Positions 22,726 to 61,468 of a stretch of 64,000 bases of DNA are shown in pieces. This DNA is from Aurelia coerulea (Eukaryota > Cnidaria > Scyphozoa > Semaeostomeae > Ulmaridae): contig CM076947.1 in the NCBI GenBank assembly GCA_039566865.1, forward strand, positions 3,231,501 through 3,295,500, given 5' to 3'. Position 1 is the first letter of the stretch; every line of letters starts with the position of its first letter. Made by a program: the position numbers and the translations under genes. The notes beneath the pieces were generated by a model. It saw only the letters and a program-made list of their open reading frames with translations, was not told the origin of the DNA and made no database searches.

Positions 22726-22727
22726 TT

Positions 22728-22973
22728 TTGTTTTTTCATGGTGCTTTGAACGATACCAAAGGTTGGCTCCAGATGACTGAAAACCACTTTCTCGAACAAA
22801 AGATTTGCTTTCATCTGGAAAAAGAAATAGAACATCAGGAAAGATGCCAGATTTATGAAAAGATAAAGAAAGTATTGAATGAAGAATTTGAAGATATCAG
22901 CGACTATGACTTTGTTTTTACCATTTCACGAAAATATTATCAGTTGATGTTATACAGTGAGAAAAATAAATGA
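22728..22973 (+). other. Unrecognised small ORF or exon
   Basis: 81 codons open on the plus strand with protein-like composition (KICFHLEKEIEHQERCQIYE, then KKVLNEEFEDISDYDFVF). It ends at a TGA 250 bp past the hAT N-terminus. No family is recognised and no neighbouring exon could be linked. Confidence 0.3.
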
Positions 22974-28891: not shown

Positions 28892-30332
28892 GACCCATAT
28901 TGTTTAGCACAGAAACAGCAGTTGTGTTATCTGACAAGACTTTGGTATGAGTATCGTGAAATTCTTTTGCAAAGGTTTGTAACCCAAATGCCTTCATTTC
29001 GAGATAGTTTATGCTATTTTCTTTTTCAGAAAGGGACCATATTCCCCCGGCAGTCATTTCATTATAGAATGCGCCCCAGCCTTCTAAGGACGCGTCCGTT
29101 TTGATGATGTGTAACGGATTGACACGTGTAAGTGGTTTGAACGCCACACTAATATTGCGTATCCACCATTCTAATTCTAATTTAGCAGATGGGGAAGGGC
29201 TCATAAAGCTTTCAAAATCGCCTTTGGCTATTTTCAAAGCCTCGGTCTTGTCCTTTTCTAGCTGACGGTAATAAAGCGGCCCATAAAGAATACCAGGGAA
29301 ACAAGAGATCATTGTGCCGAGTGCTTTCGCACAACTTCTTATGGTCGGCTTCTTTTGGCTGAGCAAATTTTGACAAACAGCCAAGACAGATTCAATCTTT
29401 TGCTGGGTGGGTTTTACAATCATAGTCTTGGAATTTAGAATAAAACCCAACATCTTAATCTCTTGAGACGGTAAAAAAGCTGACTTTTCCGGGTGAACAA
29501 TAAAGCCTAATTCTGTCAATAGTTTAGTAGCCCTGATGACGTTGGACAAGCAGTCATTAAAATTTTCACCCTGCAGGTATATGTCATCGATATAAGCAGT
29601 TGCTATGATACCCTCTTTGTGTAATTCTGTCAAAGCCGGTTTGAGCAATTTTGTAAAAATACGTGGGCAACTGGCCAGGCCATTAGGGAGGGCCTTGTAT
29701 TGTAGTAAATTTCCATTGAATCCAAATCGGAAATATTTTCTGTGCTCCGCTGCGACTTCTACGCTATAATAAGCATCTTTTATGTCTAAAGACGCCATGA
29801 AACACTTATGTTCCATCAAACTAGTAATCGTATTCAAAGTTTCCATTTTGAAATGATGGTATGTGACATGATGATTAAATTTTTTCAAGTTCAAAATCAT
29901 ACGATAGGAACCATCAGGTTTTGGTGTCAAAAATATTGGTGATATGACCTGTCCGTTTTCAGGTCTAGTTATTTCGAGCACTCCTTTTTTCATTAGTTTT
30001 TGAATCTCAGTGTTTAGAATCTGCTCCTCTGGAGCACTAAATTTTCTCTCCCGGTGGGAGATACAAGGAGAACTATTCAACTCCACTTTTGCCCCTGATA
30101 CATATGATAAAATTTCAGGGTCCTTTGTTATACGTTGCCAAGCTGTTATATGGCTTTTTATTCCACCGGCTTTAAAGTTATCACACTGATATGTAAGAAA
30201 TAGCAATAAAGTTGGAAGAAATTCTTGAAATTCACTTACATGTAACTTGCTCAAGATTTCTAGAATTTCTTTTGAGGTCGGAAACTGTGTCGCTGCTGTT
30301 GTTGACCTCTGGGCTAAAATGGCTGGCCCCAC
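28878..30332 (-). pseudogene. DIRS reverse transcriptase and N-terminal RNase H
   Basis: 484 codons overlap the gag-like ORF by 19 nt. Motifs in order: KKGVLEITRPENGQVISPIF (RT motif 1), PDGSYRMILNLKKFN (2), FMASLDIKDAYYSVEV (A), ALPNGLASCPRIFTKLLKPA (B), TAYIDDIYLQG (C, YIDD), LGFIVHPEKSAFLP (D) and MLGFILNS (E). RNase H follows with HIIKTDASLEGWGAFY, NYLEMKAFGLQTFA and LSDNTTAVSVLNNMG. The last codons to the stop (LAEV) already belong to the foldback insertion. RT itself is uninterrupted. Confidence 0.85.
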
Positions 30333-31561
30333 TGCTTTTTCCTTACTGCTGGGTGGCGATGGCCTTGCCCTAAAAAATCACGCCTGGGGGTGTAGCCATA
30401 ATAGCCAAACTGAGGGTTTGACCCCAGAAGATTTGGTTTAAAATTTTGTTCTCTCCCCTTATTTGGAGAAGGCTTAAAGGCTTTTGTGATTTTGTTCGTT
30501 TCTTCGACATCTTTTATTTGTTTTCCTATATCCTCGCCAAATAAGTGTGGGGAGTGAGCAATTTCTGTAGATGGCGAACATAGAGTTTGATACTCGGGTT
30601 TTAGAGCATTCTTCATTGTAAGGCGTCTTTGGTTTGAGAGATTGCCGATAAGATGTCCGAGCAAAGCAATTGAATCATAGGACTTCGAAATCTGATTGTT
30701 GATTTCGCTTTTGTCGTCAACATAAAATCTGCCATTTGCAGAGTAATGCAGCCCACTTTTGTTGGTGTCTGCTGCATGTTGCTCAAGCGTAAATCTGCTT
30801 GTTTCTTCTCCCATTTTAAAATTTTCCCAAGCGCCTTTGTTCACTTTTATTGGGTGTAGCTTTTTACAATTTTTTGGTCGTTTGTATTTTTCAAGAATGC
30901 TTTTAATTTTCTCAGTTTTTAACTGCTTTCCCCAGCGGTTTTCAACAAATTCCGCTAATTTTTCGTTGACATTGTCACTGACTTCATCAGCCACTTCAAA
31001 GCCTTCGGCTATTTCATCAAGGAACTCGTTGTCCTTATTTTTTCCCGTTTCTGGGTGCTCATCTTTATCCTGCTCAAGGTCTTCGTTAGCATGGATACTT
31101 ATGGTGTCATCGTCACCATTTTCCTCGTCTCGAGGGGTTTTTGCCGGTGGCTCAGATTGATTATGTTCTTTGCTCGTGGCTGCCCTTTTTCTTTCATTTG
31201 ACGGGCCAGGTTTTGGCGCAGAACTTTGGTTACTTCCTATGCTAGATGTAGAAAGCATGCCTTGTCCTGTGGACTCAATATGCCCGGTGGGCCTATTCAT
31301 ACTTGACCCGGTGGGTCCTTCGATATCTCCGGTGGGCATATTCATGGCCAGTCCGGTGGGCGTTGTTTCAGTAAGCCCGGTGGGCCGATTAAAGGAGCTC
31401 TCAACTAGCTTTTGCAACAGAAATGTCATAGCGCCCATATTTGAATTGAGTTCTACTAGAGTTTCATTTAAGTCGGGTTGTTCAGGCTCATCGCCAGGCG
31501 TGTTTTCTAATGGCTCAGTCTGTTCATTGTCGCTTGACATCTTGATCTTAAATAAAAACAC
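30314..31561 (-). CDS. DIRS gag-like ORF1
   Basis: 415 codons and intact. The N-terminal third is low complexity, with repeated PTG units (RPTGLTETTPTGLAMNMPTG and similar), followed by a charged region (DEENGDDDTISIH) and a more globular part (NRWGKQLKTEKIKSILEKYK, IALLGHLIGNLSNQRR). The C-terminus is Gly/Arg/Tyr-rich (FGYYGYTPRRDFLGQG). Position and composition fit ORF1 of DIRS elements, thought to package RNA. It overlaps the RT frame by 19 nt. Possible starts are 31561 and the second Met in MFLFKIKMSS. Confidence 0.65.
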   Translation of the reverse strand: MFLFKIKMSSDNEQTEPLENTPGDEPEQPDLNETLVELNSNMGAMTFLLQKLVESSFNRPTGLTETTPTGLAMNMPTGDIEGPTGSSMNRPTGHIESTGQGMLSTSSIGSNQSSAPKPGPSNERKRAATSKEHNQSEPPAKTPRDEENGDDDTISIHANEDLEQDKDEHPETGKNKDNEFLDEIAEGFEVADEVSDNVNEKLAEFVENRWGKQLKTEKIKSILEKYKRPKNCKKLHPIKVNKGAWENFKMGEETSRFTLEQHAADTNKSGLHYSANGRFYVDDKSEINNQISKSYDSIALLGHLIGNLSNQRRLTMKNALKPEYQTLCSPSTEIAHSPHLFGEDIGKQIKDVEETNKITKAFKPSPNKGREQNFKPNLLGSNPQFGYYGYTPRRDFLGQGHRHPAVRKKQWGQPF

Positions 31562-31803
31562 AGAACAGTTGTAAAACTTATTAATTACTGCAGTCGTACT
31601 GCTGTTCGCTGTTCTCGATAAATGCGAATTTCCAATGTAAGCAAAAGGAAAAGGTAAACATTTCTTACCGTTTGTCTTTAAAACTCAGGAGCGTTTTTCT
31701 TCACGTGTGGATGACCGACAAGATACCACGCAATGACTGGCAACGCATGCGCTCGCTTCTCATGTGACTCCGTAGTGACGTAGTTGATGACAGAGAAGAA
31801 CTA

Positions 31804-32400: not shown

Positions 32401-32635
32401 CATGGCCATTTCAGCATGAAAACGAGATTTTTCTTTGACATATCTACGGCAGACCCTCGATACATCAGAGAATGAAATACTAATAATAGAAAGAGAGCTA
32501 TCATGATCTCTGATTCATCAATATCAAAATAACTACTAATCAACAGCTCTATCAGAGTAATCATTAATCAGAAACAACTAAAAATACCACGAAAAGCAAG
32601 GAGAGTCATGATCTCCGATTCATCAATATCAGCAA

Positions 32636-33738
32636 TTTCATGTGGTACGTCATAGGAAAGAAAATAAGAGATTGAGAGAATATTAGGGTGGACAGGGTGG
32701 ACGGGTGGACGACTTGCACGTGGTACGTCATGGGAAAGAAAAGGAGAGATTGAGAGAAACTTAGGGTGGACAGGGTGGACGGGTGGACGAGTTGCACGTG
32801 GTACGTCATGGGAAAGAAAACGAGAGATTGAGAGAATCTAAGGGTGGACAGGGTGGACGGGTGGACGAGTTGCACGTGGTACGTCATGGGAAAGAAAATG
32901 AGAGATTGAGAGAATCTTAGGGTGGACAGGGTGGACGGGTGGACGAGTTGCATGTGGTACGTCATGGGAAAGAAAACGAGAGATTGAGAGAATCTAAGGG
33001 TGAACAGGGTGGACGGGTGGACGAGTTGCACGTGGTACGTCATGGGAAAGAAAATGAGAGATTGAGAGAATCTTAGGGTGGACAGGGTGGACGGGTGGAC
33101 GACTTGCACATGGTACGTCATGGGAAAGAAAACGAGAGATTGAGAGAATTGAAGGGTGGACAGGGTGGACGGGTGGACGAGTTGCATGTGGTACGTCATA
33201 GGAAAGAAAGTGAGAGATTGAGAGAATCTTAGGGTGAACAGGGTGGACGGGTGGACGAATTGCACGTGGTACGTCATGGGAAAGAAAACGAGAGATTGAG
33301 AGAATCTTAGGGTGAACAGGGTGGACGGGTGGACGAGTTGCACGTGGTACGTCATAGGAAAGAAAGTGAGAGATTGAGAGAATCTTAGGGTGGACAGGGT
33401 GGACGGGTGGACGAGTTGCATGTAGTACGTCATGGGAAAGAAAACGAGAGATTGGAGAATCTAAGGGTGACAGGGTGGACGGGTGGACGAGTTGCACGTG
33501 GTACGTCATAGGAAAGAAAACCAGAGACTGAGAGAATCTAAGGGTGAACAGGGTGGACGGGTGGACGAGTTGCATGTGGTACGTCATGGGAAAGAAAACG
33601 AGAGATTGAGAGAATCTTAGGGTGGACAGGGTGGACGGGTGGACGAGTTGCATGTGGTACGTCATAGGAAAGAAAACCAGAGACTGAGAGAATCTAAGGG
33701 TGGACAGGGTGGAAGGGTGGACGAGTTGCACGTGGTAC
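32636..33738 (-). repeat. 78-bp minisatellite array, left
   Basis: About 14 units each contain GGTGGACGGGTGGACGAGTT, GCACGTGGTACGTCATGGGA and AAGAAAACGAGAGATTGAGA. Because 78 is a multiple of 3 and the unit lacks stops in one frame, it gives false ORFs of up to 275 codons. Each unit carries a CACGTG E-box core or CATGTG variant next to TACGTCA. Confidence 0.85.
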
Positions 33739-35680
33739 GTTTATTGCACGTGTAATCACTCCAGTTTTAATGCGGAAGTGAATTTCTAGAGTCATTGTTT
33801 ATTTCTTTGCACATTGTTCACCGATAAAAAACTTGAGATTAACACAGTTTCATGGACTGAATCGGTACATTTCACGAAGCACATTATTTGTATTTTATAA
33901 CCCATGATGTTTTTAAAATGAAAGTTTTATTTCCAATTCATCTAATCTCTAATCCAAAGGTATAGTTTTTGTTTATCATTTGTCTCTTTCTTCTTTTTTA
34001 GGGACAAAATCAAATTACTAATGAATTATTTATAATTAATAAAGTAAAAAATTTAGAAACATTTAGCCTCAAAACATGCTGTATCCATAAATATTTATTA
34101 CTACTTAATGGGAACATTCTAGCTTGAGAAGCTTTTTAGATGAAAAAAAATATTGACCATTATATATCGTATTGACAAGTATAATGTCGCTTTGGCGAAA
34201 ACTTTGAGTTTCCGGTCCTTTTTTATAAATTTGGCGGACAAAGGTAGAACTGCTTATGTTAAAATTTGGAGATACTGGTCTTTTGTTCTTAACCCTATCA
34301 AATTTGACCCCCGCCCCTAGTAGACTTTTTGTTATAACTCTGCCAGGAGAACAACTATGGCCCGGAAACTTTCTGACTTTTTGCTGCTTCGTACTGTGCA
34401 ACGACTCAAAAAGTTTTATAAAAATATTTTGAAAAATGAGGGGGAGGGAGGCAATTTTCTGGAACTGACTCAGTCAAAATCGCCAGCTCTCGAATATTAA
34501 TTTTCGCGAAAAAAAAGCAAAATCGCAATAGTTTGCAAATATATTTTGCTGGGTAGTTTTATTTGATGTAATCTATCATGATTTTTCATGTTTGGATCGA
34601 AATTGTGCGCAAAATTATATTTTATCGCATTTTTCCTGATTTTGATCGATTTTGTCACTTTTCTTGACCACACACGGCAAAATGCTGACACAAGCAATAA
34701 TGACGACTAACTTTATAGGTTAATTTTCATATTCTCATAAAGTACATGCCTGTGGCTATTAGTACACCAAATCTGGTTGCTCCATCTATTTCCCGGCAAG
34801 AGTTAAGTAAGGGGGGGGGGGCTTTGTTGCCCTGTTACAACCAAGATAGTACGTGTCAGATAGCCCAACCACTATAGGGTTGATTTTGGCGAACAAAGGT
34901 AGCACCACCAGCTTACAGGTAAATTTTAGGATTTTGATTGGATAGGAGGTTAGAAAATTTGATTTCTAGGACAAATTGATTTCAGAAAAGGAAGACTGAT
35001 TTTAAGATTTCACATTTGTCTCAATGCAGTCAGTGAAAAAAGGTCAATGAAACTTGATGTAAAGCGTAGCAAGGAAGAATGGCGGCCGGGGGTCTTGGCT
35101 TGCCCCAGGGAAATTTTTCATGGCCACGCCCTTTACATCATTTGAAAGCGCCCCATTTTTGAAGAATTTGCCTTTCAAAGAAGCAAAGATTCATAAATGA
35201 TGGGGTCTTTCCAGGAAAATTTTGAAAATAGGACTTTAATTTCACGAGGATATACACTCACTTCACTTTTTCATAAGAAAGGCTCAATTTGTCGAAAGCT
35301 AAGGAACAACCCTACCTGAATTGAAAAAAGCTAAGAAACTGCTGTAATTTTCAGTTTTAGTTTTCCTATCGCACTCGAAATTATTTTGACATTGTACAGT
35401 TAAAAGCAACTGTTTGGGCATTTTCTTGAGTGCGAATCATGTTATTTACTCGTTTTGATATCTTACTAAATAATTTGGGAGCCCGTTAGACAAGACAAAA
35501 TCAACTCTACACTTCCGGCATTAAAAATATAAGAAACACGTTAGAAACTTTTGTTAGCACTGAGTAATTAAGTGCAGCCATGGTGCAGCTAACAAAGCGG
35601 AAGTCCCGGAAGTATTCATATTCCTGGATACGAATAAAGAGTTTCTCAGATTTTATTTTTCAATATTATCCCTTATGTTA
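33739..35680. other. Spacer between the arrays, no gene seen
   Basis: AT-rich unique sequence. A poly-G run occurs near 34810. The stretch 35240-35575 is a dispersed repeat, present again in inverted orientation at about 44463-44690 (shared CCGGCATTAAAAATATAAGA / TCTTATTTTTTAATGCCGG and TTTTGATATCTTACTAA-type blocks). Confidence 0.45.
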
Positions 35681-36670: not shown

Positions 36671-36969
36671 TTTGAGTACTCAAAGTTTCTTACGAGTCTC
36701 TTGGAGGTTCATAAAAATTTTCATGTTCACTGACTGCATGTGCCCTTGTGAACATTTACAAACAATGCTTTTGTAGCCTTTCCAATGTTTAGACATTACT
36801 CAAGTACCTTATGAGGTATGAGTAATATTTTACAGGAAACAAGTGAAATTAAAGTAGAAATATATCAAGGATTTTCACGCAAAAGCTTCCCTTGCTTCGT
36901 TAACTTCTGTCATCCTGGTTCCCGGCGAAAAGAAATGCGTCCCGAGACAGAGACCTGATCAATGTTGCT

Positions 36970-37745
36970 AGAATGCAACTCGTCCACCCGTCCACCCTGT
37001 CCACCCTTAGATTCTCTCAGTCTCTGGTTTTCTTTCCTATGACGTACCACATGCAACTCGTCCACCCGTCCACCCTGTTCACCCTTAGATTCTCTCAATC
37101 TCTCGTTATCTTTCCTATGACGTACCACGTGCAACTCGTCCACCCGTCCACCCTGTCCACCCTAAGATTCTCTAAATCTCTCCTTTTCTTTCATATGACG
37201 TACCACGTGCAACTCGTCCACCCGTCCACCCTGTCCGCCCTAAGATTCTCTCAATCTCTCATTTTCTTTCCTTTGACGTACCACATGCAACTCGTCCACC
37301 CGTCCACCCTGTCCACCCTAAGATTCTCTCAATCTCTCGTTTTCTTTCCTATGACGTACCACGTGCAACTCGTCCACCCGTCCACCCTGTCCACCCTAAG
37401 ATTCTCTCAATCTCTCGTTTTCTTTCCCATGACGTACCACATGCAACTCGTCCACCCGTCCACCCTGTCCACCCTAAGATTCTCTCAATCTCTCGTTTTC
37501 TTTCCCATGACGTACCACATGCAACTCGTCCACCCGTCCACCCTGTCCACCCTTAGATTCTCTCAATCTCTCGTTTTCTTTCCTATGACGTACCACGTGC
37601 AACTCGTCCACCCGTCCACCCTGTCCACCCTAAGATTCTCTCAATCTCTCGTTTTCTTTCCCATGATGTACCACGTGCAAGTCGTCCACCTGTCCACCTT
37701 GCTTGTCCACCCTAAGATTCTCTCAATCTCTCGTTCTCTTGCACC
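36970..37745 (+). repeat. 78-bp minisatellite array, right (inverted relative to the left array)
   Basis: About 10 units of CAACTCGTCCACCCGTCCAC, TCTCTCAATCTCTCGTTTTC and CCATGACGTACCACGTGCAA, the exact complement of the left-array unit. The 273-codon ORF here is a translation of the repeat. The last unit is degraded (TGTCCACCTTGCTTGTCCAC). Confidence 0.85.
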
Positions 37746-37850
37746 CTTAGGTTCCCTCAATCTCTGCTCCAAATCAATGCTCCAAAATGATTGAGCTATT
37801 GATCAATCGTGACTATCGAAGTGATCAATCAGAGATTAGTGATCAATCAT

Positions 37851-39633: not shown

Positions 39634-42600
39634 GGTAGTACTTCACACTTCAAAATTTATGTACTATGAAATACAAAACAGGCCCTGGTACCCAAACTGT
39701 TCTTTGTATGAGGTTGAAATTCTTGTGAATAATTTCTTATGGTATATGTTCATTGAAAATCAGTTTTTGAAGAAAGAATGAATTACCATTGTTCAGTTAT
39801 GCTAATTTATGCGACGCGTTGTCTTTTTCTTAGAAAGGTGATAAATCCAGAACCAGATGACCTATGAAGTTCAAATTTGGGCAGTATGTTCCTGTTAATG
39901 GCATCTGTGTTTTGAGTAGACAAATTTTTTATATCTGATTCAACAAAGAAAAAAATCAGTAAAATCACTGTTTCCATGGAAACAGCTGCCATTTTTAAAA
40001 TTTTGAATAATTGTCTACTTAAAACATTTGTTATCTTCCAACAGATCTATGTGGAAAGTTTCATTCAAATATCTCCTGTCATGTCAGAGCAACTTCATTC
40101 CCAGTTTTACAACTTCATGAAAATGAGTTTTTGAGAAAACGGCTCTTAAAGTTTCTAAAGTTTTTAAGAATAGTGTTTCCCTTTTTTATCAATGTAAAGT
40201 AAACCAAACCTTGATTTATGCTTTAAAAAGGTTGAGAAGTACCTGTAGCTACAAAATCAGTTCTTAAATGTGCATTAAACTGGCAATATATATGCTAGTG
40301 GCTCTGGCATTACAGGAGTTACTTCAATTGATGATGATGCCAAGATAGCAAATGATGGTTCAACACGTTCCAAGTCAAATTTTTGTTTCTTGGCTCCTTT
40401 TGATGTCTGCTCCCTTTTTCGCTTCTGTGGGGCTGTCTTTTCTCCTTCACTTGTGAAACCTCCTGGTTGGTAGTGCTGCTTACTTGATGCAACTGCCTTT
40501 TTCTTTGTTATTTTCTTATTCCAACGCCAACATCTATATTTTTGTGTGATCTTCTGAGTTGCAGATTTTCTTCTGACTTCATCTGCAGCTCTCAAAGAAA
40601 TCATTGTAGATCTGCCAACATTTTGAATGCCTGCAGCTTTAAGAAGAAGAGCCTTTGATCCTGCACCGGTGTTGAAGCAGGACACTGCTTCAGAAACACT
40701 AAACTCTATTCTTGCTTTGCTGCAAAACATTGTCTTTGGACATCGATCCCAAATGAGGTGATTCAAACTTTCATTTGCATTTTGGGTTAAACCTTGTAGG
40801 CAAGTCCTGCAGAAGTCAATCTTTCAAAAATTGGTTTTATGTCGAAGTAAAATGCAGCAGGAAGCCTTTGTGTTTCATCATAAGTATGACAGCCTGTTTC
40901 TTTATCAGAATTGAACTTACACCAAGTTGATTCTCCTTTTGGACAAAATCTGTGCTGCTCTTCAAGACTAACATTTGTTGCTGGCTGTATTGAATGATGA
41001 AAAATTGCCCAGATAGCATTCTGCATTGCCTGCAAATCCCCAGTGTTCTTCCTTATTGCATTTCCATAGTAACGCTGAATAATGTTGATTCTTTCCTTTG
41101 TCAAACGACCTTTCCCACCTATTGTCTTGCCATCTGCCAACTTCTTCCCTTTTCCATCCTTCTTGTAATTTCTCAATGCATTGCCCATTCTTTTTTGGAT
41201 GTGTCCAATGCATTCTTCCTTTATCACTTTGTACCTTCCTCCGTAAATTTTAGCAATGCCATCTCTAACGACCTTGTAGGTATCACTGTCACCATCTCCT
41301 ACAAATGTAGTATACTTCAAATTTCTTTCAGAGATTGATCTTTTGAATATTTTAAGTGCACCATCACCTTCCATACCACCAGAAGAACCCTCATAATTAA
41401 TTTGACATTTCTCTGAATGTTTCTCTTCCCACTGCTTGTACATTTGACTAGTTTTATCATCATGTTGGTGTTTTCTGCATTCATGACAATGTAATGACAG
41501 CACTTCAAAATCCACCACTTCACCTGTATCAACAAGGATGGCTATTACTACTCCATATTTGGACGTAAACCCGCGTTTTTGCCATGTACCATCTATGCTA
41601 ACTGCTACTGGGATAGCTCCATCCGCGTCTCTTTTGTCAGCATTTGGGCTTTTCTTTAAAATACATTTTCGTATCCGCTCTGCTGCTTTATTCATAACCA
41701 GCTCTGCTTCTCGTCTCCCACTCCGAGCCACATACTTCATGTGTCTAGCATATGAAGCAGGCGCTAATGGTGGAGGCAGATTCATAATTCCACAAAAATC
41801 AGATAATACTTTGCGCCCACCTTTCATTGTGTTACATGATACAACAGATCGCCTATTTACTTCAAATTTCCCATTGTCAATTTTGGCACTTGAATATGTT
41901 TTTGTCTCATGTTGACACTGAGAGCACTTAAAAATTAACATCTCAGCCAGGCCATGTCTCCTGGAGTTATCTTTCAAAATCTTTATCTCTGATTTTGCAC
42001 TTTTGCATGAAGAACAAATTGCAGCTGATCTTAGGGCAGATTGAACCACTGAGATCTCCACCAGAGAGAATCCTTCTGCCTCTACAGTTTTCCTTGCAGC
42101 TTTATTTGGTGAAAAGCCCAAAGCCTTACGACTTGACCTTGTTAATACACCATCTGGTACAAGGTCTTCAAATGAAGAATTCGCTAATTTCTTATCAGTA
42201 ATACTACTGAGAGCACTTGTGTTCTCTACATTATGATCACCGACTCTAGGCCTAGGCGTCGAGGTGGATGTAACTTGTATTGGCTCATCCGTAGTACTGG
42301 CAATGTTGATTTCTTCAAGCCTACTATTCGCATTGTCAGTGGTTAAATCTTGAGGACGCCTTCCAAAAAAGCCTTTCCTCTTCTTTGCTTTGATTCGTTT
42401 AATTGCTCGTTTCTTGACAGGAGCCATACAGTAGATGTTCACCGAACTCGTAGGCCCACAGACAGCTCACCGTGAAGTGAAGAGTTTTTCCTCGCATTTA
42501 CCAGAAGGAGGCTACCACAGGTCGGCCATATGCTGTTTTTAAACAACAGGGAGACTCTCGGGAATAAATACAGGAAAGGGGGACGCCCGGGGGCTCTAAA

Positions 42601-46400: not shown

Positions 46401-46900
46401 TTGCAAATTGAGGGTCAAAAGCTGTAGATGAGGCCCTATCTATTGCAAAAGAATTTAATGAAGCAGAGAAAATGTATGAGCGGTCAATGAAGTCCAGGCT
46501 TGAGCTCCTTGTTGAAAACAAAGAAAGTGCGTGTGCTGAGGGTTGTGAAGGTCGTTGGCTACGATGTGCCCTTGAAATCATAGAAGGGAATGGTATCAGT
46601 TTGCCTTTCTTTTGCAATGCCCTATACGTTGTTATTACAAAGGGCAGGGGGAAGTATCAGAATGATTTTATTCACGGTCCAGCCAACACTGGAAAAACGT
46701 TCATGCCTTCGCCATTAAAGGGAATATATAGGTGTTTTGTAAATCCAGCAAGGGGCAGTTTTGCATGGATGGGAGTCGAAACAGCAGAAGTAATTCTATT
46801 GAACGATTTTAGATGGCATCCCACTACAATCTCCTGGTCCGACTTCTTGCAGGCCCTGGAGGGAGATATCGTGCATTTTCCAGCCCCAAAGAATTTTTTT
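46400..46900 (+). pseudogene. SF3-type helicase domain fragment
   Basis: A frame open from about 46400 (KAVDEALSIAKEFNEAEKMY before the first Met at 46472) contains DFIHGPANTGKTF (Walker A), FVNPARGSFAWMGVETAE and VILLNDFRWHP (Walker B region), then WSDFLQALEGDIVHFPAPKN. GPxxTGKT...LNDFRW...LEG...PAPKN resembles superfamily-3 helicases of Rep/NS1-type proteins of small DNA viruses and related elements. It ends at an A/T-rich stretch at about 46895 where the similarity stops, so sensor and C-terminal parts are missing. Whether it is an endogenised viral fragment or a transposon-borne helicase cannot be decided here. Confidence 0.55.
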
Positions 46901-47880
46901 TTTATATTCAATCAAAATTTTACAATACAAGTTACTTTTTAACACTACTTACAAAACTACTTTACGATACTACAAAAACGATACCTTGGAGAGCAAAAGT
47001 CTATGGCAACTCCGCAGCCATTACATAAAACTAAAGACTAAATCATATCATGCTTCTTATCATGCTTATCATGAATAAAGCTTATCATGTTCTTGCTGTT
47101 CTAGACCCAAATGCAAAATGATTGCTCTAAGGGACAGTGCAATTTTTTTTCCACAATACATAGGCAGTGAAGAACACAATTTTTGCTAAAATAAATCTTT
47201 CTGTCTCATTGCAAAAACCAACTGCCCTGTCACCTCCTTGGAAAACATATCTGCCCCACATTCGTGAGCATCATATCCAACTACACTACACTACAAATGA
47301 ATTAGCCAACCAACAACAAAGAAATAAAGTATTGTTCTTGATGTGAAGTCAAGTTTTGTTGTGGCTTTGTTGTCAGCATGAACTGTTTGGACATGGAGAT
47401 TCAAGACAATTTATTCACAGGTTTTTAGCATTTGCATGGCTTGCAATTTTTTCCTCAAGTTGAAGAAATGTTTGTTTCTCCATCGGCAAGTCTGGAGTAA
47501 AGTTTTGCCAACAATTTTCGTTGAGAGTTTTCCTCAGTTTTTCCTCTCGCTACAACCACTCAACGTACCCACTACCTTCATTGGCATAGATGATTATTTA
47601 TCATTTCAGGGTCTACTGTTATACGGCACTGTTGTCCAGTACTGTTCCGTGCACTGTCTCTAAAAGTGCAATCAATGTACGGCCACAATTGATTTTTTTC
47701 CAATCTGCCTGACCAGCCCAGCCCTTCCCTGCCTGCATCAAACTTTCATACCATTTTACATGATATGAGATATCTTGCGTGAATTGGCTTAACTTCAGAA
47801 TACCCTGCACATAAGGAGTATGTTTAAAAAAACGTGGATACGCGGATACGGAGTAGGTATGTCATACAGTTAATATCTAA
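46901..47880. other. No gene seen
   Basis: No supported ORF or clear repeat. Confidence 0.4.
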
Positions 47881-50141: not shown

Positions 50142-51128
50142 GTAGTTTCTGGACCTAAACTTGGGACATTTGGTACCATCAGATTTTGTGATGTTTTCAA
50201 AGAATAACTCGGGTTTTAGTTATTCTTCTGCTTTATTCCTTTTCACTTATGCTACACACGTTTTGGGCATCTTCCATATCATGCAAGATTTCAGAAAGAT
50301 GTCCCAAAATAATTCAGGTATCCTATCATTAGACATCATGCCCCATTTAACCCTAGTTTAACCGGGGGGGGGCGTTTTTGCCCCCCCCTACTGGATTTTG
50401 TTTAATAACCCCCGAACGATGCTAGGTATAACGCTGAAACTTCCTGACTTTTACTAACATTTAATTTTCCATCAGAAAATAAAAATTTCAATACCTATTG
50501 TTTGACCACGTGACCACCACGTGCCCATATTTGGAGAGTGGTCACAAAGAAATTCGTCAAAACGGCTCAAATTTCTTTTTTTGTTAATGAATCGTTATGA
50601 TATATATATATACCATTCGATTCGTCTCGATGAGTGCTTTCATTTGATATATAGTTTATTTATATTTGCTGACATTAACAATTTATTAAATATATGACGT
50701 CATCAGTTTTTATGACGTCATATTTCTAATTAATCACTAATTTTTTCATGCAAAACTGATGGAATGACTTCAAATATTGATGAAGGTACTTGATTTCACC
50801 AAATATATGCGAAATTCATGGTTTTTAATCATCATTATTGAGGATACAACTTTGCATTGAATCAAATTGTCATTAATTAATTATTTAATTAATTAGAAAC
50901 CAAAAATATCCGCATGAAACTATATAATATTACAAATTTATTCTATCAAGCAGCTATTTGGATGGTTTTTTTCCCATTTTATCCAGTTATTTGGTAAAAT
51001 TAGGCCCTTTTTTGTAGATAGCTCAATTTTGTCAAAATTTGCTTTGTTGTTGGTTGCCTAGCAACCAATCACGTGACGATAGATTGATTGATGCCATTTT
51101 TGGATTCTCCTTTGCTCAATTATGTTAA
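50142..51128. other. AT-rich left flank of the 10 kb transposon
   Basis: No gene. It includes a poly-G then poly-C pair near 50364-50390 and a TGACGTCATCAGTTTTTATG-ACGTCA repeat near 50695-50725. It ends at TTAA, 51125-51128. Confidence 0.45.
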
Positions 51129-51264
51129 AGCTTTATCATCGCTATATAATGCCCGCCGGAATTATTGGCTGCCAATAATTCAGTTGCCAGCCTCGCACTT
51201 GAGAGTAGGACGTGCGCATATGGCGGTGTTGTTTGATGTAGCGTCCAAATTTTTGTGATGGGAG

Positions 51265-54200
51265 ATGGCAGGCAGACCGAAGCTCGAAGATCCGAAGGGA
51301 GTTCGAATTACTCTGAGAACGACTGAAGAAACGAAGGCGCTGTTTATGGAGACTAAGCAGCAGAACAGCTTTGAAAGCAACGGCGACTTTTTGCAGTTCC
51401 TGTTGGAATTTTTCTTGCAAGTGAGGAGCAATTTTGAAAGGACCCACAAGTCTGGACTTAGGCCTGGGCCTAGCAGCCCCGAAGAAGAAGAAGAGAGTAT
51501 GCACATTGACTATGAAATAGAAACAGACGAGTAAGTAAGAATGTTTGATGTTCTGTGAATTCGTTTACTTCTACACTTTCAATGTACCTAAAAATTTGTA
51601 GCAAAATGATATTTAGGTCGCATATTAACAGGTTACTGGATTGGTTGGATTCTTTGTTGTGTGTCTTTCAGAATATTTTCCTTGCCCTCTGTGCAAATTG
51701 CCAAGTGAAAAATAGAGCCACAAAAAATATAGTTTACAAAATAATGTATTTGCAATCTGTTGCTTGTGCATGCATGTTCAGTTTCTAATTCAATCAATCT
51801 GTTTTTTAATGAATATGTATGGGTACTGGGTAGATTATTTTACATTTATTTTGATTCCATTTTGGTTTGTTTGTAAAAGCATGTTCTTTCTTTTTGAAGG
51901 GATGCTAAAGAAGACATGGAAGCAGCAGCAAGGTATCTAGACATGAAAACTAGTCATCGGAAAGAGAGGAACTCTTTCATCAATGACCATTCATTTTTAG
52001 AGAACTGTGAATCAGCACATGATGCTACAGAAATTAGTGTATGTATGTCGGATGATGAACTTGAGGATATAGTGGAACCAGCTGATCCTAAGGAGCAAAT
52101 TGCAGAGATGGTTCCGATGTATGAATCTTACTGCTGGGGTAGTAGTAATATTTTAAATTCTTGTGCCGTTGATACTTTCATGGAGATCATGTTTCAATCA
52201 TACATACGGCGACCAGAGTCATTTGAAAACAATGCCAGTAGACATATGATTATTCTAATACAAGGTTATAGGAAGAGAATTGAGTTGAATGAGCTCGAAT
52301 CAGGGAAAGTAGCATTTTGGGAATGGCTTCGATGTAAAGGAGCAAATATGTTTGAAGTTGGCAATTTAATTTCTCTTACTGCCATATTTGAGGCATTCAT
52401 TGGTAGCCTTGTATCACACCAGGAAGGGCAACTATTTAAGCTACAATATGAGGAGCATACAAGATGTGACCTCCACTCACAACACAGCAAGACAGTTACA
52501 GTCACAAGCAATGTTGTATATGTTACAAAGAATAAGCTTAAAGAATTAGGAGCCATACCTGACACAGAAACACTGTGTGCAAAATTGTTCTCTACATCAA
52601 AAAGGAAATTGAAAAAGGATTGTCAGCAATCATTGCTAAATAGCGCAAGGAATTGTTGTGGAAAGTTGATCAAGTCTGCCTTTTTAAAAGTCCACCCAAA
52701 AATTATTGTGCTAAATGTAAATGATGTGGCAGAAAGCAAGCTAGGAATCTCAAAGTCCGTATCAATAGATTTTGTGCATTACGGACTCGTTGCTGTTGGG
52801 TTCCTGAAAGATGACCACTATTTTTGTCAAATATTATCATCCCAGTCAAACTATAAACAGGGGTGGTATTTGCATGATGGTCTTCGAAATGGTGGGTGTG
52901 CTACATACTTAGGGGAGGGACCATGCATTTTAGAAAGCACACATGTTGAAATATTGGTATACGAGCAAGTGCTGCCTGCATGCACCCCCAAAGTTAACAC
53001 AGGAAGCCAAACAAAATGCTCGAAAGAGGAAGAGTTCTGTATTGTCAATGCATCCAGAGCAATTGTACACATACCCAGTCTCGAGCAACTTGCCCTGGCT
53101 GGGAACTGTCAAGAGAAAGGCTGCAACAAGAAAATGGTATCAGTTAAATCAAATCAAAGAGGTGTAGAGGCTTGAAATTATTTGTTCAGCATATCATACA
53201 ACTAAGTGGTTTTCATCTCCATGGTATTATGGAAGGTTGTCAAACAACATTCTTTGCTGTGCTGCCATTTTCCTCTCCGGGGGGAGTTACAGCCAATTTG
53301 CCAGGTTTCAAGGATTCCTCAACCTTGGGAAAATATCTGCAGGACAATTCTATGAGCTGCAGTCCCTTTCTATTCTTCCAGCTGTTCACTCAGCATACAC
53401 AAAGTTACAACATAGGTTGATTGGTGAAGTTGGCTCAAAAGAAGTAATTATTGCAAGTGACACACGGAGTGTCACAATGGGCCATTGTGCTATGCGTGGG
53501 ACATGCAGCTTCCTTGATACTGAAACAAATGTATGGCTTTTAATGAAATGTGGTGATTTCAGAGAGGTAGATCGCAAAGCACCAAATTTGGAGAAAGAGA
53601 AATTTAGAGAGGGGCTTGTTTACTTGAAGGAACAGATAAAAGTGAAGGAAGTTGTTACAGATGCATCACCACAAGTTATTTGCCTTATGAGTAAGCTCTT
53701 TCAATTATCTTATAAAATTACCAGACTGCCAACTTTGTTGCGAGTGCCAGGGGTCTCAAGTCAAATTTTTTCAGGCAAAAGTGGACATGAAATTTAGTAG
53801 GAGTTGGAAACAGTCTTATACAGTAGATCATTGCCCTGTGTGCACAGCCAATGCACAATTTTGCTACGGGCGCAAAGGTTTTCATTAAAAAGACCTTAGA
53901 CTTTTCAATTCAGTCAAGTGGCAGACCAAGCATGCATTGATATGGAAACATTTGAAAATTTACTGAATGTTTAGTTTTTGTATCACACCCTTTCAGTGCA
54001 GGACAGAGCATTGTCTAGAGTTAACAATTAACTGATGTTTAACTGATCAAATTTTCTTCCAGAGAATGATCCCAAACTGTCTTCCATAACTCACTCACTT
54101 GATGTGTGGCACAAGGCAAAGAAACTAACAGCAAAGCTGACAGAGGTTTGTACAGTAGATACTACTGTATAACTATTTGGCTGGTAAAAATCCCCAATAT

Positions 54201-56714
54201 TAAGAAACCAAAGGTATATGGCATTAATAAACAATGTGGATTTTACTACACCAGGTGTAGTAAAATCCCCATTGTTTATTAATGCCATATACCTTTGGTT
54301 TCTTAATATTGGGGATTTTTACCATCCTGTCCTCATATGAAATGATTGTAAATAATCAAATTATGCCTAATTGGAAAAGCTAGTTCTATGTAGTACAATA
54401 CATTTTAAACATTTCAAGATAAAGATATTCTTTATGTGTCATGCGCGAGGGCGTAGACGATCGTGCTCTTCCAAACTTCTCTATCTTGGCATGTTTGCAT
54501 TTTGCTGCAGGACAGTTCAGCTCAGTCCCAGCTTTTTAATGTTTTGTTGCATTTTATTTCCACTTAAATAGGCAGCATCAAAATCTATCAACAAATCTCT
54601 AGAAAAGTGGATTGCACCAATAAGGAACCACTTCTGGTATTCCTGTGAGAACTGCGATGGCAGTGTGGAGAAGCTAAAAGATCTGTGGTTAGGGGTGATT
54701 CATCATGTTCAGGGCCAACATGAGTGGCTTGGAGGTCGCTGCAATCATGAATTGATGATTGATGCAGATGGTGACAAGGAGTGGTTGAGAGAGGATGACC
54801 CAGCAATGGCAGCAATAAGGTACCCATTAGTGTTAACAACATCACAGTACCTTTCCTGGGTAGGATTCTAAAAAATTTTCTTCTGCTAAGCTATAATTTT
54901 AATTTGATCTGAGTAACTCCTTCCAAGAAAAGTAAGAATGTGCTGAGGAATTCCTATATCAAAATCAATTATGGTTTCTTAAGTTACATTTTCCCAATAC
55001 TGGAGTTTCTTAATTTTTGCTGATCTGAGAGTGGAATTTCTTATAATGGCTCCTTACAAGAAAAGCAAAGAATTGTTAAAAGTAAATCTTCATCTTTGAC
55101 TTGGTTTGAGATTTTTTGATTGTAAAATCACATCGTTCATAGTGAAGTATATACAGTAGACATGACAAATACATAGAGTACAGTAAAGTCCCGCCTTTAA
55201 GAAACCCATTTTTTGACCTCAGCCTATTGTTCCCCCTTAATTTCTCTAGTGTTCCCCCGTTGTTCTACAAAAAATCAGGGCTCGAGTTTCTTATAAAGTA
55301 GTTTCTTAAAGGCGGGACTTTGCTGTATTGGCAAACACAGTTCTGACATCCTCATAGCATCCCAGGCAAAAGTTGCTTTATAATGTATCACAAAGAATGC
55401 TCATGAAGAGCAATTAATTGTCCATTTTTCATTATATTGTTCATTAATCTTAGGGAAATTGTTCTCGATCAAAACTGGCTGCAGAGTCTTGCTTTCTATG
55501 TAAATTCAAGGCATACTGGTTCCTTAGAATCTATCCATAGTCTGATGTTGACATACTGCCCAAAGCGAATTGGTAAGCATTTTAAAATACAAAAGTACCC
55601 AATTTTGAGGGAAGTGTATATATACTGTAGAAAAATTATCTCACAATGTTGTTAAAAATTCATCAAGTCAACAATACACATAAAGAATGTGACAGTATTT
55701 TTAAGATTTTGAAATATAAAGGGGTAATTGATGTTCTGAGGGATATTACTCATCTTATGAAAAATAACTGTTTTGGAAACTGTCTCACTGTGTAATTCTA
55801 TTGCAAAACATCAACCAAATGTACAATTAATGGAAGCAACAATTGTTTTTGTGTAAGTAAACCAACAGATTTTGTGTAAGTAAACCATTTTCAAAGTCTT
55901 GTGCAATTATGATTAGTCACTTACAGTGTGCACTTATTTGTGATGGCTATGGTGGCAAATGTGACAAAACACCAGCTCTCCTTTTTCAGCAGTTTCTTTT
56001 TGTTAATATTTGACCAAGTAATATATTATTTTTAATTTTAATTTTTAGGTTACATGTATGATGCATACAGAGGGCGAATGGAGCTTGCATTTTTGGATTA
56101 TAATCACCATAAAGACAGAAAAACTGCTGTCTCTAAGCATGGCAGCAAGGTTCTTAACAGACTGTATAATCGCAGGACAAAAACACACTTTGTGGTTGAA
56201 GTAAAAGAAAGAAAGAGATTCACATACATTCCAGGTGATTATGCTTCAATATCAAATTCCTACAAAAGACACTTTTCAATTAGTGATATACCCAAAAATT
56301 AGTGAAAAGTATACTCCAGAGTACAATCAAATACATGGAATAAGGACATGTTCTGACAAAATACCACTTTTGACAACTGGCTTTTGAAAAATTGCCTTCT
56401 TTTGATACCCTGCCTTAGGAAAAATGGTGACAACTATCCCTGGAAAGGAGTGCATATCATACCACTCCAATGCCAGATAGCACCTAATTAGTTTTGCGGA
56501 ATTTTCTTCTTATATTCTCTCTTGTTCCACAGATATAATGGTCGATTGCATGATACAATGTGCTGGAAAGACACGACATGGCACATCAAAATCAAGTGAA
56601 CTGCTCTGTATTGAATCCAGATTTGGCAAGCTTGGCAGAAGTACTGTGACACCAGAAAGTACCATATTGATAGCACAGTCCCAAAAGTCAAGGATTTCCA
56701 AGGGCAAGAGATAA
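51265..56714 (+). CDS. Cysteine-peptidase/DDE transposase fusion, 7 exons, one frameshift
   Basis: Exons: 51265-51530, 51900-53690, 54063-54145, 54572-54819, 55454-55572, 56049-56234, 56533-56714; every junction keeps phase, about 958 residues. The N-terminus MAGRPKLEDPKGVRITLR with ESNGDFLQFLLEFF looks DNA-binding. A ubiquitin-protease-like fold follows: NILNSCAVDTFMEIMF (Cys about 177), YGLVAVGFLKDDHYFCQI (His about 395), GWYLHDGL (Asp about 415). The DDE part has IIASDTRSVTMGHCAM (first Asp, about 610), VVTDAS (second, about 676), ITHSLDVWHKAKKL, NHFWYSCENC and TGSLESIHSLMLTYCPKR (Glu, about 822), then MELAFLDYNHHKDR. One base appears to be missing at about 53169-53172 (GVEA / LEIICSAYH). 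No other break is seen. Roles are inferred from fold signatures. Confidence 0.8.
54183..54322. repeat. 140-bp near-perfect palindrome (hairpin MITE) in a transposase intron
   Basis: Arms of 70 bp (GGTAAAAATCCCCAATATTA inward, and its complement at the other end) meet with almost no loop at GGATTTTACTACACC / AGGTGTAGTAAAATCC. Only one mismatch was seen. It lies in intron 3 of the transposase (54146-54571). Confidence 0.85.
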
Positions 56715-57852
56715 TATTTTGGGGAATAGAGAGGACATGCAAAATGATGAAGTATGTTTATTGCTGTATATATCAGTGGGGGAATATTGACACCCATCAT
56801 GCATTTCAATCATAATATAATTATTACAGTACTGTACCAGGTGTCCAAGAAAAAAGTATAAAATATTTTGTTGGTTTCAAGTAGATACCTCATTTGTTGA
56901 CATATATGTAGGTACTTTGAGAGCTGAAATAATGCTGAAAGTTCAAATTTGCCTCCACATCGAAAGCAGAGTTTTGGAATTTTGGTATTAATATTTCAAC
57001 ACTCAAAACATCAATATCATTGGACAAGCTATCTATGTTCTAGTTTACTCCTCCACCCAAATCAAAAATCTTTGTACCTTCTCTGAGACACGTGGTATAT
57101 GTTCAAGCTGACAAAGTTATAATATCACACAATATTAACTTTTAGTAATACGTAAATGCACCTATTGTGCTTTGCTTATTGTCTGCTCTCAACAATTGTC
57201 ATTTACATTGCCTCCCATTCACGGTACAATGCATAGCGGTTGTTTGGATCTGGATAAACTGACCTAATACGGAGTACACAGCAAGAGGGGACTGGCTTCC
57301 TGTTACCTTTTCCAAGTTTCCCATGTATCCAGGCTATATAATTCCTATAGGCAATAAACCAGCATAGGTTTCAAATCTTTAAAAAGGCTGGTGTAAAATT
57401 GAATGACTTATTTCTTTGTGCTGAATGACTTCAATGAAACTTTTGCTATTTCTCTATAATTCTACCGTTGGATTTTTCTGAAATCTTTAATATTTTCAGA
57501 GTTGGAGTGTTTTTCTTCTTTTTCAGGAATTCAAGAAAAAATTTCAAAAAAACTTAAAACCATTGTAATTTCTAAACCGTTTGACGCAACATGAAGTAAT
57601 TTCAAAGAAAACCATAGCTTATGAATGCCTACCATATGGTATCAAGCAAAAGTCTGTCAATCATCTAGTTTATGATTTAGAAATTTGATGACGTCACAAC
57701 CTCAAATGAGCTGAAATTTAGAATACGCTGTAATTTTGAAAAATATTCAAATTTCTGGAAAGTCCAACGGTAGAATTATAGATAAGTATCTAAAGTTCCT
57801 TTCAAGCCATTCAATCAGAAGAAATAGGTCATTGCATTTTACACCCACCTTT
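56715..57852. other. Gap between the two convergent transposon genes
   Basis: No ORF of note. TCCAACGGTAGAATTATAGA at about 57763-57782 is the inverted partner of TCTATAATTCTACCGTTGGA at about 57452-57471, so a roughly 330-bp hairpin-forming segment, possibly a MITE, occupies 57410-57830. Shared terminal phrases such as AATGACCTATTTCTTC / GAATGACTTATTTCTT are near both ends. Confidence 0.5.
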
Positions 57853-60800
57853 TTACGCCAAGTTAAAGATTTGGAACCTATGCTCAATAAACCTTAGATT
57901 TTCGTTGTTGAATCTGGGAGTTTGGGCGCGTGAGTTTGCATAGCATATCTGTCCTATTTCAAGGGCAAATTCCGAAAGGCATCCTTCCACAAACATTGGT
58001 TCAGTACTGTGGCAATTTGACTGATGCTTTCCACAACAGACATCCATGGTTTTGATTTCCATTGGCCTACAATTGTAACAGGAGCACCATAAGGGAGGAG
58101 AGTCTGTCACATTGAGCATTGGATTTGCATCTCTTCTCCTCAAGACGGCATCTGCATTGTTGATCCATATCCTGGGTTGGTCTTCAGCTTGTCTCAATAC
58201 AAGATCTCGAAGCTCTTGGTCAGAAAGACTGTCAATTCTTGCCTAAAATACAAGTTGAACATTCAATGGACAGTGTATACATCACATGTCAAATGCAAAT
58301 TATACGACTACTGTTTCAAGTTTGTTGGCATATCCATTTCTTGTTAGGAACTGATGACCTCCTTAATGAAATTGCAGGGAATATGTTGTCTGATATTGAG
58401 AACCATTTCAATTCTCCAATTGTGGTAGCCCACTCATGATATAAATATATATATAAACTCAGAAAAAACACATTCTTTAAACGTTTCGGCGTAAGCCTTC
58501 ATCAGTAATCAGATTAAATTGAATCAAAGATTACTGATGAAGGCTTACGCCGAAACGTTTAAAGAATGTGTTTTTTTGACTTTATAAATCTATTTTATCA
58601 CGCATTGACAATGAGCTTATGAGTATATATATGTATATATACACTAAACTACACAATTCACTAAACTACAGTATATAGCTCGCAAATTGAATTATAGGTA
58701 TGGAATAAGTATTTCTTGCCCCTATTAGCTTGATTTGTTACAGCACTTACCAGATGGTATGAATTTGAATCAAATCCAAGAAAATTAACTATCACAGAAA
58801 TTAATTCCTAATGAGTGTGGTGCTACAATATGAAAACCAACCGCATGGGTATTGTATAAAATTCAACATATAATCACTAAAATTAGCAAACTTTATTACA
58901 AAGTTACCTTTGCTTCCTTTTGAAGATCTCTCAGAAGAACCTTGTCCTCTCTTACTATGCGCAATGCAGTAGGACCAGCTTGGGATGAATCCTCTTTATT
59001 ATTTACGGTAGTGGACACTGTATCCTAAACAATTAAAAGAAAGGTTGTGTGCATTTAAACTTACAAAGAATGAAGTAGTCAGTAATACAGGCATTGACAT
59101 GAATATGTTGTTGCTGTTCTTGGCAACTTACTGTTCCTATACTTGTATATCATTTGCATATACTTTTACCTGATGATTCCTAAGTCAATTTTATGTGGTT
59201 CATCATTTTTGATATGTTGTAAAAATCTAACAATTTGGGAAAACTTCAGAAATTAATCTTTTATTGCATGTTTTTTAGATATCAAGGTTCAAATCACAAA
59301 CTAGTTATTTGATAACATCTGACATAGAGGCAAATAACCATCTTTAAATCTCTTGCGTCCTGTTGCGAAGGAAAATAATGTATGCATCCTGTTGAGTAAG
59401 CATAAAGGTGCTTGTAGTTGTAGATATAATTATCATCAATAAACATTGAATATGTCGTAATGTCTTACCATTTTTCTGCTCTTGCATATACCAGGTCTGC
59501 AACCACAGAGGTCAGTGCAACCACTACCTTTGGCACATTTACATTTGGTGCATTTTCCTGTGGCTCCACATTTACACTACAGATGAAAAGAGTCTGTATA
59601 TAAACTTCACCAGGTCTAACTTACTGAATCACATTTTAAAATTATATACACGTGCACTAAAGTTGATTGGTTTGAATTCCTTACATTTTGAATCACTCTC
59701 CATTGCTTGCAATGTAACAGTATCATTTAGCAGGCCGTTGACAAGCATATTGACCCAGAAACAAGCCGCACCAAGCTGAATTTGATGTTGAATCTTTTCA
59801 TCAGAAACATACCCTCATGCCTTAAAGTGATCATAACAGAAATCTCTTGATCTTCCAATAACTTTACAAATTGAAAAAAAATCAAAAACCTATATTTTTG
59901 CTGACAAGAGCTTAGCAAGTAGATGGACAATGAACAGCACTAAACCAAAAATGATTATTAGATTGTAACAACAATACTTGCCTTCTTGTCCTCAGCTGGA
60001 TGTTTGATACTAGGTCCTGCAACTAAAAAGTAAAAATCATTAAATGAAACCCTTACATGGGTAGTTGCAAAATATTTCTGTCATCATTAGTGTAGAAAAA
60101 GGTGTGCAAGTTCGGTAAGAACTGAACCGTGGATGTTTCAGTGCAGATCAATGAAATCTGAAGTACAATCGCGAATTCACTATCAGGCATATGTCTTTGT
60201 ATGATTCACAAGTGAAATGATGAAGTGTACAGTGTGCAAAATCAATAACAATCTTGGATATTTCCATCAAGTCAATATGCTTAGAGACTTGTCAGTGATT
60301 TCAGTAAGTATGTTTGGTCTTGTTCGGTTCACAACATTTATCAATACCTCTTTAAATTTGGTGTTCTGAACAGTGGCGGATTTAGGGGGGCAAGTGGGGG
60401 CAACTGCCCCCCCTTCACGATGAAAACTCAGCTTGGCGCCCCTTTTTTAGCGAGAAAAGTCCCCCTCATCCTGACTCTAACAAACAATTCTCTACCTGTT
60501 TTTGATTCAAATGCAAGCGAAACGTATAAATCAAGTCTTTATTTAGTAGTAAATTAAAGAGTTTTCTTTAAAAAGTGTCCAAAAATTTTTGCGTGCCTTC
60601 GGCGCACTCATTTTCCAGGGTATTTTTAGCGCCCTCTTTGCAAGTTGCCCCCCCTTCAACTTCGGGCTGGATCCGCCCCTGGTCCTGAAAGCAAATTTTT
60701 CAACATGGACTGGATGGGTCATACATTATTTCGATATTCGACATTTTAAAGAACATTTTCTGCACTAAAATTTACCTTCTTGATTTGTTGGTTTCTTAAT

Positions 60801-61330
60801 TTGAAATATTTGAGTATGTACATACCACCAAGTTTTTTTCTCTTAAAAAGCATCCCATTTTGAAGAGCTTCGTCAGATGATGGCGAATCAAGCACTCTGA
60901 ATGGTATTCTGCGCCTTCTTGGGGTCGACGACGTGACGTTTGAGGCAGCTATTTTGGTTTCAGACTGCATTGCATGATTTGAAGATGTAGCTGCCGGTGT
61001 TGGTGCTGCTATCGGCGACAGAAATCCTCCAAAGCTGTTTGATTCCAGTAAGGATGCCCTGCAATGGATTTTATAACATAGTGTATCGAAGGGTCCTTTA
61101 ATTTTGATCATTTTCCAAACCCAAATCGAAGAATAGAATAAAGGGCCTAATAAGTAAAGCGACCTTGGCGCCAACCAAAGTGAAATATGCACGCAAGAAA
61201 ATCATACTCACGGGTCAATTGTCTGAATATTTGCAAACAAATCTTCAAAGGATGCAGGTCTTGTGGCAGCTGCTACATCAATAGATTGGTCGAATAAAAA
61301 TTCAATCCCCAATTCATCGGTGGAATCCAT
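57853..61330 (-). CDS. Accessory protein with CXC cluster and P2X7-ballast-like C-terminus, 6 exons, intact
   Basis: Exons 61330-61212, 61058-60826, 60016-59982, 59576-59469, 59024-58908, 58242-57853 total exactly 1002 nt (333 codons plus stop). All acceptors are AG. Donors are GT except after exon 3, which is GC (GCAAGT). The N-terminus is acidic (MDSTDELGIEFLFDQSIDVA). Exon 2 is Ser/Pro/Ala-rich with TPRRRRIPFRVLDSPSSDE. Exon 4 is a compact CXC cluster: CKCGATGKCTKCKCAKGSGC then TDLCGCRPGIC (9 Cys), like tesmin/TSO1-type zinc domains. Exon 6 has SPPLWCSCYNCRPMEIKTMD and VCCGKHQSNCH, the WCxC..C..M......CC pattern of the P2X7 receptor cytosolic ballast domain. Both are zinc-binding in their families. 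A DNA- or transposase-binding role is inference. Confidence 0.75.
58463..58577. repeat. Perfect 48-bp inverted repeat with CTGATGA...GAAAC core
   Basis: The left arm 58463-58510 and the right arm 58529-58577 are complementary across an 18-bp spacer. Each arm contains CTGATGAAGGCTTACGCCGA followed by AACGTTTAAAG on one strand. It lies between exons 5 and 6 of the accessory gene. The phrase resembles terminal sequences of Penelope-like and other elements. Confidence 0.8.
60371..60681. mobile_element. hAT-type MITE in intron 2 of the accessory gene
   Basis: It begins CAGTGGCGGATTTAGGGGGG and ends GGGCTGGATCCGCCCCTG. Flanks GTTCTGAA (60363-60370) and GTCCTGAA (60682-60689) match at 7 of 8 positions, a slightly diverged 8-bp target duplication. 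The interior is palindromic (TGCCCCCCCTTCA / GTTGCCCCCCCTTCAA phrases). It has no ORF. Confidence 0.75.
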
Positions 61331-61468
61331 TTGCCGTTTTTGTTTTGTGCACGCACGCAGCTGGAGGTTACAGCATTCACTGAGGCTTTATGAACGTACT
61401 CAAAGGCGCCAATCGATGAATGGCTAAGCGAGGCTGGAATTTTATTTATAGCGATAGTAAAGCTTTAA

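Follow-up and report, generated by a model that had tools for sequence, protein, structure and literature searches.

The window analysed here, 64,000 nucleotides of the scyphozoan Aurelia coerulea (GenBank assembly GCA_039566865.1, contig CM076947.1, positions 3,231,501 to 3,295,500 of the forward strand), contains at positions 51129–61464 a 10,336-bp element flanked by TTAA at both ends and carrying two convergent genes. We identify it with high confidence as a cut-and-paste DNA transposon of the Kolobok superfamily, group Kol0 with the partner gene KolX, whose transposase most likely includes a protease resembling ubiquitin-specific proteases (USPs, peptidase family C19) and USPL1 (C98).

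Structure of the element and its copies

Matching inverted ends with TTAA on both sides had been predicted and were found: the inverted arms, 22 bp counting the TTAA, are imperfect and 91% complementary, and the terminal bases of the element, AG at the start and CT at the end, are of the 5'-RR/YY-3' type. The two convergent spliced genes expected at opposite termini were modelled from the sequence as seven exons on the plus strand (transposase) and six on the minus strand (accessory protein), with consistent splice sites that are GT-AG except for one GC-AG. The features are as follows.

51129–61464, no strand: whole Kolobok-like element, whose two end bases recur in three other full copies
51125–51128, no strand: left TTAA target duplication, read directly
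61465–61468, no strand: right TTAA target duplication, read directly
51129–51146, plus strand: left terminal inverted repeat (arm 51125–51146 including TTAA)
61447–61464, minus strand: right terminal inverted repeat (arm 61447–61468 including TTAA)
61428–61437, minus strand: subterminal stretch containing CCAGCCTCG, common to the family-2 right end and the element's own left end
51265–51530, plus strand: transposase exon 1, predicted, possible DNA-binding N-terminus
51900–53690, plus strand: transposase exon 2, with the protease-like region, then the start of the DDE core; frame break
52099–52998, plus strand: putative protease-like region with USP/USPL1-like motifs, placed by motifs and conservation, without database or fold support
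54063–54146, plus strand: transposase exon 3, DxxH motif (DVWH)
54572–54819, plus strand: transposase exon 4, H2CH zinc-finger-like stretch (motif by eye)
54824–54843, no strand: uninterrupted TTAA intron site, where the C7 copy carries a family-2 element
55454–55572, plus strand: transposase exon 5, GSLE with the candidate third acidic residue (by eye)
56049–56234, plus strand: transposase exon 6
56533–56714, plus strand: transposase exon 7, including the stop
61212–61330, minus strand: accessory exon 1
60826–61058, minus strand: accessory exon 2
59982–60022, minus strand: accessory exon 3, GC donor
59469–59576, minus strand: accessory exon 4, encoding a Cys-rich (CxC-like) segment with 77% identity to family 2
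58908–59024, minus strand: accessory exon 5
57885–58242, minus strand: accessory exon 6, encoding the initial portion of the P2X7 ballast domain (P2RX7_C); the reading continues into the insert, with a stop at 57853
57361–57884, no strand: nested 524-bp insert splitting accessory exon 6, with the 9-bp duplication CAATAAACC and imperfect inverted ends
57203–57360, minus strand: remainder of accessory exon 6 past the insert, including one copy of the 9-bp duplication

The genome to which the window belongs (574 Mb, 294 contigs) was searched with the first 502 bases of the element. Of the 17 matches, one was the window itself, three were full 5' ends elsewhere, and two were the pieces of a single interrupted copy; the remaining eleven were short and fell at ten places. 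Whole copies designated C9 (two), C4 and C7 were compared with that of the window, and this set is referred to as family 1. The full copies at C9, C9 and C4 (10,221, 10,212 and 9,705 bp) start and stop at exactly the same end bases as the window copy, each with TTAA on both sides, so that the ends at 51129 and 61464 recur elsewhere as anticipated; the first 25 bases of these copies show 1 or 2 differences from the window. The main aligned blocks of the window and the other copies are 95.5%–99.5% identical, and the proposal that the element is young holds roughly for these blocks, but large internal insertions and deletions are also present. Since the two C9 copies share near-identical flanks (99.8% identity over the element plus 200 bp of left flank, 99.9% over 2.9 kb of right flank), they represent one insertion in a segmental duplication, and family 1 therefore has four insertions at distinct sites (window, C9, C4, and C7). 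The 5' end of the C7 copy, with its TTAA, was confirmed, and its 3' end was not found in an exact-string scan. Among the ten short-match places, three carry short derivatives (179–266 bp) in which both end types are present; TTAA flanks one of these derivatives on both sides and the other two on a single side.

The C7 copy is interrupted, within an intron, by a diverged element of 12,007 bp, designated family 2, which has similar ends and TTAA on each side. The same intron site in the window is unfilled and has a single TTAA, and the comparison of the two loci is a clean filled-versus-empty one for family 2. This family was also found at C21 and C14, with 99.1%–99.8% identity in the main blocks compared and TTAA at each 5' end. 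Its gene layout matches that of family 1, with the ballast gene inside the ends and convergent to the transposase gene. The CCAGCCTCG sequence is kept near the right end of both families, and the subterminal stretch containing it may have a role in binding.

The two genes recur together. A genome profile search with P2RX7_C (best 150 of 291 candidates scored, 150 matching) was compared with a search using the DDE piece of the window (best 150 of 292 candidates scored, 149 matches); both lists include exon pieces and segmental duplicates. A DDE match was present within 12 kb of 81 of the 150 scored ballast matches, and in 78 of these 81 cases the pair was convergent, against a random expectation, for any orientation, of 4.0 pairs on average and 11 at most (200 randomisations). 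In families 1 and 2, each of the eight loci has a ballast match convergent to the transposase, up to 16.5 kb away where another element intervenes. These data support the original prediction: a single TTAA transposon, with its two convergent genes, is found repeatedly as one unit.

Both genes of the window copy are damaged. A single apparent base loss had been suggested for the transposase, and a frame break is indeed present in exon 2, in a region through which P0002 (a relative found in protein databases) and three family-2 loci read; however, Val also replaces an Asp kept in the C7 copy, family 2, P0002, and two other Kolobok-like transposases of the genome (L073 and L074, 2.4–2.5 kb each examined). 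The accessory frame had been described as intact across six exons, but the 524-bp insert with its 9-bp duplication splits the last of them: the 335-aa accessory reading stops inside the insert, with the remaining part of the ballast domain beyond it at about 57203–57360. This insert is absent from the C9, C9, and C4 copies, whose exon 6 is uninterrupted, and given its duplication and inverted ends it may be a Mutator-like miniature element. Since the transposase is broken and the partner gene is split, the window copy is non-autonomous.

Two further observations concern these copies. Near-perfect hairpins lie within introns of both genes, at 54179–54327 (74-bp arms, 97%) and 58463–58576 (48-bp arms, 100%). 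An 868-bp sequence, possibly another TTAA element, begins at the TTAA on the right of one C9 copy (L018/L019, C9:11615813–11630000) and is absent from its segmental duplicate.

Assignment to the Kolobok superfamily

The published hallmarks of Kolobok transposons are the TTAA target, RR...YY ends, a C/DxxH motif between the second D and the E of the transposase, and a zinc finger following it (PMC9587614, 2022; this and the other papers are cited for selected passages). Families of the Kol0 group encode a DDE transposase together with KolX, a protein with the ballast fold (PMC9587614). The element has the TTAA target duplication, the RR...YY ends and, by eye, the C/DxxH motif in the form of DVWH in exon 3, followed by H-x5-H-x6-C-x-H in exon 4. 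Its second gene encodes a P2X7 ballast domain: the C-terminus of the accessory protein matched Pfam P2RX7_C with an E value of 3.1e-8 (34.2 bits, cut-off 23.5). A protein-database search with the accessory protein gave a single relative, P0001, which matched P2RX7_C with an E value of 1.3e-24 and the P2X7 chains of PDB with an E value of 8.3e-15. We name the element Kolobok Kol0 with KolX because the TTAA target, the AG...CT ends, the DxxH transposase, and the ballast partner match the description in PMC9587614; the earlier statement that it belongs to no standard family is thereby corrected.

The same features are those in which the element resembles Kol0 Kolobok, with Kolobok-1_XT as the named representative (PMC9587614). 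It differs in that no THAP match was obtained for the first exon and in having an additional protease-like region ahead of the DDE core. The C-terminus of the P2X7 receptor and Nanor have a homologous ballast domain, although these two are host proteins; the P2X7 ballast domain was proposed to derive from KolX, and Nanor is likely a domesticated KolX (PMC9587614).

The assignment was made by reading features against a published description, and Pfam offered no model that matched the transposase. Weighing against it, Pfam revealed no THAP domain in transposase exon 1; PMC6004289 describes an N-terminal THAP domain as usual, rather than required, in Kolobok transposases. The family-2 counterpart of exon 1 gave a sub-threshold match to MobC_2 (E 0.0079), and exon 1 of the window gave none. 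By eye, the first exon of L073 is THAP-like, yet it had no Pfam match, while the first exon of L074 resembles that of the window.

The region upstream of the DDE core and alternative readings

A region of about 300 residues upstream of the DDE core is present in families 1 and 2 (8 loci). A genome search with a 424-aa piece of this part of the transposase gave 16 matches at ten places, five of them loci of family 1, three loci of family 2, and two remnants. The region is broken at some of the eight loci (frame break in the window, stops in both C9 copies), and the three family-2 loci have a single open frame of 613–622 aa running from the protease-like region into the DDE core. No such region was seen in the stretches of L073 and L074 that were examined, and neither was matched in the 424-aa search.

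In the protease-like region, families 1 and 2 share 42% identity. The ten most conserved separate 15-residue windows between them were ranked, and the first, EQLALAGNCQEKGCN, adjoins the DDE core. The next four, GWYLHDGLRNGGCAT, WGSSNILNSCAVDTF, and those beginning with LVYEQ and DHYFCQIL, are the Cys-box, Asp, last-strand, and His-box stretches; along the protein they are ordered much as the corresponding parts are in USPL1 and the USPs (Cys box, His box, Asp, last strand), and the motifs are invariant between the two families. In a third, degraded family the Cys box is retained, and Gln stands at the His position. In all five stretches compared, the proportion of nonsynonymous differences (pN) was 0.13–0.40 and that of synonymous differences (pS) was near saturation at 0.70–0.87; since pN is well below pS, the protease-like region was under selection. 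P0002 was the sole relative found in two protein-database searches with this region and covers only its last 19%. The cross-species evidence is thin, because the database searches with the two proteins gave one relative each (P0001 and P0002).

On this basis the upstream region is probably a USP/USPL1-like cysteine protease, as judged from its motifs. The principal alternative, which we consider unlikely though it deserves serious weight, is that the element is the same Kolobok but the region is a lineage-specific DNA- or protein-binding domain in which the Cys and His motifs arose by chance. Several results speak for this alternative and against a protease. Pfam searched up to E 10 gave only Syntaxin_2 (E 0.034–0.055, below the cut-off) for the window region and nothing for family 2, no NCBIfam match was obtained, and PDB sequence searches returned chance matches only. 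Three-sequence hidden Markov models of USPs gave no His-box match in either family and misplaced Cys-box matches. The single-sequence AlphaFold2 model of the window region alone was unusable (mean predicted local distance difference test score of 31.5). In seven shuffle tests, the real score was reached by 363 of 500, 221 of 1000, 6 of 1000, 77 of 1000, 390 of 1000, 6 of 300, and 80 of 300 shuffles; two tests (6/1000 and 6/300) were clearly above chance, whereas the other five, at 77/1000 or worse, are unconvincing. The Gln in place of His in the degraded third family likewise favours a non-protease. Against a binding domain with chance motifs stands the coincidence of the conservation peaks of ranks 2–5 with the Cys-box, His-box, Asp, and last-strand stretches, arranged as in USPs. 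The hhalign comparison with USPL1 counts on both sides: its E value of 0.67 is a further point against a protease, but the single local alignment sets the His boxes in register, without significance. The original description of the transposase as protease-bearing is thus plausible from motifs and conservation peaks, but it has no support from Pfam, NCBIfam, PDB, hhalign, or AlphaFold2.

Two readings that would change the identity of the element itself are very improbable. One is that the ballast gene is a host gene merely lying beside or inside a transposon. According to PMC7016195, the genes for ballast proteins are ancient in animals and show some conserved synteny, and 69 of the 150 scored ballast matches have no transposase match within 12 kb (best 150 scored in each list), which also weighs against the Kolobok Kol0 assignment; these are short pieces, solitary genes, or misses of a search over best-scored lists. 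However, each of the four full copies encloses the ballast gene between matched ends, family 2 repeats this layout, and 78 of the 81 nearby ballast-DDE pairs are convergent, so we rejected a host gene because it recurs inside transposon ends. The other, a piggyBac element with an accessory gene, shares the TTAA target but was rejected on its ends, motifs, and domain matches, since the AG...CT ends fit the RR...YY of Kolobok, the transposase has a DxxH motif, no exon piece matched a piggyBac Pfam domain, and the ballast Cys residues are kept here, whereas the piggyBac proteins discussed in PMC9587614 are without most of them.

Neighbouring elements and possible role of the protease-like region

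Several other features of the window were noted. On the minus strand, 40787–42463, with 40275–40823, encodes a Mutator-like transposase (Pfam PF20700, E 1.9e-74). PIF1-like helicase open reading frames (ORFs) at 5604–7454 (+), the first matching PF05970 with an E value of 2.1e-35, are possibly part of a Helitron-like element. The region 24911–31684 (-) looks DIRS-type, having a tyrosine-recombinase ORF (PF00589, E 1.8e-5, below the cut-off) and, by eye, reverse transcriptase-like and gag-like ORFs. Pieces of a hAT-like transposase were recognized by eye at 21360–22896 (-), with no Pfam match for 21360–22082, and an ORF piece at 46412–46939 (+) resembles a superfamily-3 helicase by eye and had no Pfam match. 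Long repetitive ORFs at 32606–33740 (-) and 36904–37794 (+) have one common unit in opposite orientation, i.e. they are inverted tandem arrays.

As for the Kolobok element, its transposase, judging from the family, would excise it and join it to TTAA by DDE catalysis, and KolX would aid transposition as a zinc-bound cofactor. We propose that the upstream region, as a probable protease, strips the transposase, or repair proteins at the cut site, of ubiquitin or SUMO. In family 2, the protease-like region is preceded by VILSDDE, which resembles a SUMO-interacting motif. A tentative model, in which we place limited confidence, is that a lineage of Kol0 transposons carries a USPL1-type SUMO isopeptidase in its transposase behind this SUMO-interacting-like stretch, with KolX joining a Cys-rich segment to the ballast domain, and that transposition needs local removal of SUMO or ubiquitin.

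There are parallels for such an arrangement. Removal of ubiquitin or SUMO was suggested as the role of the Ulp1 and OTU domains that occur in Ginger1 and some other elements (PMC2836005), and the Ginger1, Mutator, and Helitron elements carrying these domains are alike in having a proposed ubiquitin/SUMO cysteine protease beside a transposition enzyme. Their transposases are different, however, and the Ginger1 protease is C-terminal (PMC2836005), whereas the region described here is N-terminal and, if a protease, USP-like. A Trichomonas protein with transposase_11 and peptidase C19 also combines a USP-type (C19) protease with a DDE transposase, but the transposase is of another type and the protein was reported in a protist (PMC2836005). 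Searches of one open-access library, largely at the level of listed papers, turned up no earlier description of a Kolobok transposase with a protease. Kolobok and Kol0 with KolX are known, while the protease-like region of about 300 residues upstream of the DDE core may be new.

The element belongs to the group proposed as the source of the ballast domain of the P2X7 receptor, and this group is abundant in one genome, as indicated by the 78 convergent pairs among 150 scored ballast matches. If the protease reading is true, Kolobok would join the DNA transposons with ubiquitin- or SUMO-removing enzymes, and the role of such an enzyme would be testable in a defined element.

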